64,000 bases of DNA from Pseudomonadota bacterium. Its GTDB lineage: Bacteria > Pseudomonadota > Alphaproteobacteria > Micropepsales > Micropepsaceae. Location: assembly GCA_021804785.1 (NCBI GenBank), contig JAJZGY010000002.1:124001-188000 (forward strand). The letters run 5' to 3'. This document shows, piece by piece, positions 15,630 to 16,962 of the stretch. Made by a program: the position numbers and the translations under genes. The notes beneath the pieces are model-generated. The model had not been told where the DNA came from and did no database searches. It saw nothing but the letters and a program-made list of their open reading frames with translations. How positions within the stretch are numbered: the first letter of the stretch is position 1; every line of letters starts with the position of its first letter.

Positions 15630-15691
15630 ACGTCTATCTGCAGCTGCGGTGATTACCGCCTGTTGCGACACTCTTGGCTCATGCAATGGAA

Positions 15692-15715
15692 AAGCCCGGC
15701 GCAAGCGCCGGGCTT
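15692..15715 (-). terminator. Intrinsic terminator of the diiron gene
   Basis: A 10-bp perfect GC-rich stem (AAGCCCGGCG/CGCCGGGCTT) closes a 4-nt loop. On the minus strand it runs into TTTTCC. It begins about 23 nt past the diiron gene stop. It may also end transcripts of the forward gene at 14814. Confidence 0.75.
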
Positions 15716-15737
15716 GTTCACATGCAAAATTCGAAAC

Positions 15738-16850
15738 CTATTCGGCGGCAAGAAGGGTCTTCGCCTTGTCACCGGTAAAATTGATGGTCTGGAGGAATTT
15801 GATGCCGTCTTCGGCAATTTCATCGCCAATCATGCGATCGCCTTCAGCCTTGAGCCCGTTCATGTCGACATACATGCCATAGAACGCCTTGGTGCGATCG
15901 GTGATGATGCCGGCATTCAGAAGGGTCTTGATCAGCACACGGAATATATTGGCTGATTCCTTCATTTGCTCACGGCGCGAATCGTCACCAAATGCTTCCT
16001 GTATGGCATTCATTCCTTCCTGTGGATCGATGCCAACAGCGCGATAGACATGATGCATCTGCAGGGGATTGACGAGATTGAAGAGTAACGTCTGGAAACA
16101 CTGCGCGGCCCAATCCTCGACACGAGCATGTTCCTCCTCGGAAAGCTTGGGAATGGTCCGATCAGCCCATATCTTTCCGAACTTGTGATGGAACGCCTCG
16201 TCCGTCATCACCAGCTGGCACAGCTTGCGCAGCAGGGGATCGTGCGACTTCTGATAGAGCGTCGCAAACGCCCCCATGGCAAGACCTTCGACCAGCATCT
16301 GCATGCCCACGATCTTTTTGTAGACCTCCGGCGCCAGCACCATTTCGGTGAGCAAGGTCTGCAGCGTCTCACCGCAAGGAAGCGGTGTGCCCCAACGCGA
16401 CTTGATGTAGGCCGAAAACGCGGTGACGTGGCGCGCTTCTTCGCGTGTCTGATTGGCGGCATATTCCTGCGCGCCTGGATCCTTCAGAATATGACACAGC
16501 GAGGCTGAGAGCGCGAGGGCGCCCTGCTCCCCATGAAGGATGGCCGAAAGCTGCCAGCGACTTGATTCACGGGCGAACAGAAGACGCTTCTCGGTTCCCA
16601 TCGTATCACCGAGCTTGGTGGCAAAGATCGGAAAGAAATCCTCTGGCAGGAGCATATGCTGGCTCTGATCAAAGGCTTCCGTGAAGTCGATGTATTTCTT
16701 GTCGAGCGGATCCCAGAAATGGTCGTGCGTGGCCGAGATGATCTTGTCAAAGGCGGTGGAGCGGCACCCGTAGCGCTCTACATCCATCATCGCCGGGAAA
16801 TCTTTGGGGTCTACGGCGTCGTAAGCGGGATCCTTGGTAATCTGCGACAT
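15738..16850 (-). CDS. Ferritin-like diiron protein, probable oxidase or oxygenase
   Basis: 370 residues beginning MSQITKDPAYDAVDPKDF. It has a four-helix ferritin-like pattern with metal-ligand candidates in order: Glu in ILHGEQGALAL, EExRH in TREEARHVTAF, Glu in LVEGLAMGAF and DExxHH in MTDEAFHHKFG. These E, ExxH, E, ExxH sets are typical of class I diiron carboxylate enzymes related to ribonucleotide reductase R2 and AurF-like oxygenases. AurF's extra His ligand is not evident. No signal peptide is seen. The substrate is unknown and no redox partner is adjacent. The promoter is bracketed by two palindromic operators, so expression is probably tightly induced. Confidence 0.8.
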   Translation of the reverse strand: MSQITKDPAYDAVDPKDFPAMMDVERYGCRSTAFDKIISATHDHFWDPLDKKYIDFTEAFDQSQHMLLPEDFFPIFATKLGDTMGTEKRLLFARESSRWQLSAILHGEQGALALSASLCHILKDPGAQEYAANQTREEARHVTAFSAYIKSRWGTPLPCGETLQTLLTEMVLAPEVYKKIVGMQMLVEGLAMGAFATLYQKSHDPLLRKLCQLVMTDEAFHHKFGKIWADRTIPKLSEEEHARVEDWAAQCFQTLLFNLVNPLQMHHVYRAVGIDPQEGMNAIQEAFGDDSRREQMKESANIFRVLIKTLLNAGIITDRTKAFYGMYVDMNGLKAEGDRMIGDEIAEDGIKFLQTINFTGDKAKTLLAAE

Positions 16851-16884
16851 GAGGCCTCCGGACAGGCAAGAGCATTGGCAAAAA

Positions 16885-16898
16885 TGACGACCCCGTCA
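16885..16898. promoter_or_regulatory. Operator 1 (TGACG-N4-CGTCA) of the diiron gene
   Basis: TGACGACCCCGTCA is a 14-bp interrupted palindrome. It lies directly after the predicted -10 and would cover the transcription start. Its flanks match operator 2 (AAAAA before, CAT after), making a 23-bp near-direct repeat. Confidence 0.65.
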
Positions 16899-16925
16899 AC
16901 ATATTGGAATGCGTCTGAGAGTCAA
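16898..16925 (-). promoter_or_regulatory. Predicted sigma-70 promoter of the diiron gene
   Basis: On the minus strand TTGACT (16925-16920), a 16-nt spacer and TATGTT (16903-16898) form a reasonable -35/-10 pair. It lies exactly between the two operators. Confidence 0.55.
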
Positions 16926-16931
16926 GAAAAA

Positions 16932-16945
16932 TGACGGCGTCGTCA
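16932..16945. promoter_or_regulatory. Operator 2 (TGACG-N4-CGTCA) of the diiron gene
   Basis: TGACGGCGTCGTCA is a second copy of the palindrome, 47 bp from operator 1 and immediately upstream of the predicted -35. It is also close to the end of hisB. Confidence 0.65.
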
Positions 16946-16962
16946 CCATTCCTGACGCCGAG

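Follow-up and report, generated by a model that had tools for sequence, protein, structure and literature searches.

The described CYP153 system consists of three components, a P450, a [2Fe-2S] ferredoxin and a ferredoxin reductase, and the diiron protein considered here is neither one of these nor a heme enzyme; the two are nevertheless alike in having a common operator in several genera, in co-occurring in the host family and in being able to form operons together. On the regulatory side, the TetR-type lipid repressors PsrA, DesT and FabR recognize 5-4-5 palindromes with the half-sites GAAAC or TGAAC, and the palindrome ahead of the diiron gene resembles theirs in its two 5-bp halves, its 4-bp gap and its association with fatty-acid metabolism genes, but differs in its half-site, TGACG. 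Among ferritin-like enzymes, R2lox proteins carry a Val-Tyr cross-link beside the metal site. The R2lox of Geobacillus (GK2771) has been reported to be an alkane monooxygenase (PMC10867098), and our protein shares with it a predicted two-metal site and a similar gene setting, a cluster of alkane-oxidation and beta-oxidation genes. Against this background, the operator that the diiron gene shares with genes for the breakdown of oily chains offers the first testable clue to the job of this enzyme, and places a widespread family that lacks an assigned family or substrate in a pathway, the oxidation of alkanes or other alkyl chains next to CYP153. We consider it probable that a lipid-responsive dimeric regulator switches this regulon and that the diiron enzyme oxygenates alkyl chains alongside CYP153.

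The gene occupies 15738..16850 on the minus strand of the 64,000-nucleotide stretch that was analysed (the window) and encodes 370 residues behind a ribosome-binding-site-like GGAGG read from the sequence ahead of the ATG (16855..16859, minus strand). The E/ExxH/E/ExxH diiron ligands that the sequence-only reading had assigned to it are confirmed as E108, E138, H141, E188, E218 and H221, which are invariant in 46 homologues, two at 25-26% identity included. This 2-His/4-carboxylate pattern fits the ferritin-like diiron carboxylate oxygenases in the broad sense, and most diiron hydroxylases have the same six ligands (PMC12101540). In an AlphaFold2 model (pLDDT 89), one ligand set falls on each of four long helices, and comparison by VIA-align gave Z scores of 20.8 for the R2lox of Geobacillus (241 residues), 20.6 for R2 and 19.9 for AurF, a tie at the top; the protein is thus predicted to have the R2/R2lox/AurF fold. 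The earlier view that no recognized family claims the protein also held up, as Pfam and NCBIfam searches with the window protein reached no family cut-off, and our literature search on the enzyme found no description of the family. In sequence, the protein resembles enzymes of known reaction only weakly. R2lox itself is a poor match (NF006200, 17.2 against a cut-off of 194 bits), and Ala111 and Met183 appear to stand at the places of its cross-linking Val and Tyr, judged by spacing from the ligands.

Two better-known enzyme types have to be weighed for this protein. One would make it a fatty-aldehyde oxygenase of the deformylating ADO type, which would remove or shorten the aldehydes arising downstream of CYP153. 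When the family profile was compared with solved structures, cyanobacterial aldehyde decarbonylases came out best by sequence (E 1.4e-7), the ligand order is similar, and the Pfam ADO model gives weak matches to 44 of the 46 members; yet the window protein scores 22.3 against 222.65 bits for the NCBIfam model TIGR04059 and 21.3 against 28 for PF11266, it exceeds the 220-position model by about 150 residues, R2lox, R2 and AurF rank together on top in the fold comparison, and the cyanobacterial enzyme belongs to an alkane-synthesis context. We regard this assignment as unlikely. The other type, an AurF-like N-oxygenase or CylC-type halogenase rather than a lipid oxygenase, draws on the fold score of AurF and on its standing as the nearest Pfam model, with E below 0.01 for all 46 members, although the window protein itself stays below the gathering threshold of PF11583 (25.8 against 29.6 bits); CylC-type halogenases are similar to AurF, and one of them, NocO, acts on a fatty acyl chain, which it chlorinates (PMC12101540). 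The third histidine ligand of AurF and CylC (PMC12101540), four residues before the last ligand Glu in HxxDExxH, is replaced by valine (Val214) in 45 of the 46 members and by alanine in one, and the glutamine of the CylC motif QExxH by Glu or Asp, leaving the family with E/D-ExxH and VxxDExxH and with the ligand set of hydroxylases. Given these substitutions, we judge an AurF or CylC activity to be very improbable.

Upstream of the gene, the two exact TGACG-N4-CGTCA palindromes claimed from the sequence alone are present within a 23-bp direct repeat (16880-16902 and 16927-16949, 83% identical, spacing 47). They are the only exact copies in the whole window, where shuffled windows held a mean of 0.07 and reached two in 1 of 100. 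The hexamers named in the same reading also lie between them on the gene strand, with TTGACT as the -35 element (16920..16925, minus strand) and TATGTT as the -10 element (16898..16903, minus strand) after a 16-nt spacer; roughly one chance match to TTGACT-N16-TATGTT is expected in the region (0.9 per shuffle), so that support for the promoter comes from its conserved arrangement among relatives, including the spacing between the -35 and the palindrome. The palindromes do flank the promoter as proposed, but the upstream copy, TGACGGCGTCGTCA (16932..16945), stops 6 nt short of the -35 instead of ending at it. The downstream copy, TGACGACCCCGTCA (16885..16898), starts at the last base of the -10 (16898) and covers the expected start site. 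The upstream position is the one most widely kept among orthologues, and the downstream position occurs only in close relatives.

The neighboring genes are hisB, named from its sequence and located 112 bp upstream on the same strand, and on the other side mmcB, which matches the Pfam MmcB-like family. A terminator-like hairpin lies 3' of the diiron gene (15687..15720, minus strand), a G+C-rich inverted repeat followed by a short T tail, and no separate terminator was seen between hisB and the diiron gene. The diiron gene is probably an independent transcription unit, though with hisB on the same strand and this close that is not certain. A scan also flags both palindromes as terminator-like, and they might be weak intrinsic terminators of hisB, each a hairpin with a T run, rather than protein-binding sites. 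Their core stem is just 5 bp, their sequence is fixed and not merely paired, they also stand ahead of P450, GMC and ferredoxin reductase genes that have no hisB upstream, and their set distance to the -35 is often kept, all of which makes this explanation extremely unlikely.

The palindrome was sought upstream of the relatives of the diiron gene, which number in the hundreds in alphaproteobacteria and, within the host family, are found in 50 of 96 genomes. Of 91 homologous alphaproteobacterial genes, 68 have an exact core in the 250 nt ahead of them, 12 of these two or more, while only 13 other exact cores occur in 0.9 Mb of loci, several of them between P450 and diiron genes; by our own estimate from this background rate, fewer than one upstream site would be expected by chance. 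Copies at orthologous upstream regions are therefore common, and the earlier suggestion that the palindrome binds a regulator gains support from this conservation. With up to one mismatch allowed, a hand count gave a palindrome within 250 nt upstream of 69 of the 78 main matches. The sole close relative in the plasmid collection, 52% identical and carried on Tistrella plasmid pTM3, also has an exact palindrome upstream. From these sites we derived the symmetrized 24-bp consensus AAAAATGACGCnnGCGTCATTTTT. The flanked pattern gave 21 sites in seven named genomes against none for the reversed control, and within the host family it occurs in 19 of 50 genomes that carry the diiron gene but in only 1 of 46 that lack it (p 8e-6, a value that, like the others for this family, overstates independence because the genomes are related to each other). 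Most of the genomes compared are metagenome assemblies, and genes in the loci were called by simple ORF picking, which leaves some start codons in doubt. These counts mark the palindrome as a conserved operator. A CRP/FNR-type site was rejected, as in such sites the TGA core occupies -6 to -4 relative to the dyad and the TGA here stands at -7 to -5; the CgrA and DriD sites likewise differ from it, and our literature search on the motif returned no description.

Sites also precede other genes in genera that include Parvibaculum, Phenylobacterium, Caulobacter and Tepidicaulis. Here the operator is found ahead of paralogues of the diiron gene, a second AurF-like diiron family, CYP153 alkane hydroxylases (PDB match CYP153A7, E 1e-175), [2Fe-2S] ferredoxin and ferredoxin reductase genes, a GMC dehydrogenase, an acyl-CoA ligase/enoyl-CoA hydratase pair and acyl-CoA dehydrogenases. 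Together these genes make up a path from alkane into beta-oxidation, and the diiron gene belongs to a lipid- and alkane-oxidation regulon. The terminator had earlier been taken to make the gene a self-contained unit; the hairpin stands, but the gene is better described as a regulon member, since the same site lies ahead of CYP153, ferredoxin, reductase, GMC and acyl-CoA genes. The operator also provides a handle for listing the whole pathway and fishing out its regulator.

The association with CYP153 extends to gene content. CYP153 is present in 38 of the 50 host-family genomes that have the diiron gene and in none of the 46 that lack it (p 2e-16), and within the host genus the corresponding counts are 20 of 30 and 0 of 39. 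Ten genomes with a diiron gene of this family (P0001) have no P450 match at threshold and two more have only distant P450s, indicating that the enzyme does not require CYP153. Several genomes have the diiron gene and CYP153 on one strand at a distance of about 90-1400 bp, in some with a [2Fe-2S] ferredoxin between or beside the two. Four loci (L319, L320, L322 and L324) hold operons of the diiron gene, a [2Fe-2S] ferredoxin and one or two copies of CYP153; no palindrome at up to one mismatch was found in these operons, suggesting that they are switched by something else. Across the group, CYP153, ferredoxin, reductase and diiron genes have the operator in common, but no palindrome lies upstream of the window genome's own CYP153, and with the palindrome-free operons this shows that CYP153 and the diiron gene are not under one switch everywhere. 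The functional link between them is broader than a common switch. The diiron protein is most likely a ferredoxin-fed oxygenase of alkyl chains. More tentatively, it may represent a new class of soluble diiron (or Mn/Fe) enzyme in alphaproteobacteria that oxygenates alkyl chains with electrons from ferredoxin, acting with or in place of CYP153 under a new lipid-responsive operator. If a soluble alkyl oxygenase is indeed what the gene encodes, it would be a new enzyme type in hydrocarbon turnover by alphaproteobacteria of soil and sea and a possible biocatalyst.

How the operator acts can be approached from its position. TTGAC lies 6-8 nt downstream of the palindrome in 33 of 81 sites, against a single case at that distance on the opposite side, and is often followed by a -10-like hexamer 16-17 nt later; orthologues with one site retain solely the palindrome upstream of the -35. 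With its most conserved position just upstream of the -35, the palindrome could serve activation, a dimeric regulator recruiting RNA polymerase there upon an alkyl signal and the start-site copy tuning or limiting expression, much as the Caulobacter regulator DriD activates from sites at -35 (PMC12340889). Other sites, however, fit repression better: in another clade the second palindrome overlies the -35, further copies lie over the -35 or the spacer, and some regulon members have their site just 30-60 nt before the start codon. Since second palindromes cover the start site or the -35 and sites come as close as 30 nt to the start codon, we favor repression, holding it about twice as probable as activation, which is a possible but less likely mode. 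The layout had been read as that of a dimeric TetR- or MarR-like repressor; TetR-like repression remains plausible, but only close relatives show the twin arrangement in which one palindrome covers the start site (L016, L018 and L020, with one mismatch in L019).

The claim that no regulator gene adjoins the locus was upheld, and a wider search for the regulator found none. TetR genes near diiron genes are scattered and not conserved, and none of the 27 TetR-type matches in the window genome has a site upstream. One TetR gene, P0002 in G099, does lie under a site, but is an unlikely candidate for the regulator: its only close relatives, in two Parvibaculum genomes (about 52% identity), have no site, and one of them adjoins the same desaturase-like gene as in G099, the probable target of this TetR. 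About 40 further sites were examined for neighboring regulator genes and yielded only two kinds: in L261 and L265 a TetR gene lies one gene away from one-mismatch sites, and in L269 one site is followed by an XRE-like regulator. In the repressor reading that we prefer, an unlinked dimeric regulator, most likely of TetR type, would bind the operator and hold the genes silent until alkyl substrates appear, being released by fatty acyl-CoA or a similar lipid signal. The diiron protein would hold two metal ions in a four-helix bundle, receive electrons from the [2Fe-2S] ferredoxin and ferredoxin reductase pair of the CYP153 system and activate O2, and an alkane, a fatty alcohol or aldehyde or another alkyl chain may then be hydroxylated or deformylated alongside CYP153.

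Within the window genome itself sites are few. Those before genes that it shares with a near relative (97% identical in the protein) are the two ahead of the diiron gene and one each ahead of an acyl-CoA dehydrogenase, a tandem ferritin-like pair and a PAS-domain gene. The tandem genes (L203:1021-2765, on the genome's own contig C171) have the conserved palindrome upstream, and one product is weakly similar to R2lox, the other to ADO/phenol hydroxylase. In L126:1-3300 (own contig C29), the conserved palindrome lies about 250 nt upstream of the gene for a 311-residue PAS-domain protein. A 64%-identical paralogue of the diiron gene is located near pnp (L125:14633-15829; own contig C92:119172-120251), and the halves of its palindrome are separated by 3 bp (TGACGCCACGTCA), against the usual 4 in the near relative. 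In L250:1417-3627 (own contig C38), another P450 adjoins a different, ferritin-like-looking protein of 286 residues. Elsewhere in the family, one genome has a site ahead of a gene that reads like fabI, the enoyl-ACP reductase gene (L169:1505), hinting at a link to fatty-acid synthesis.
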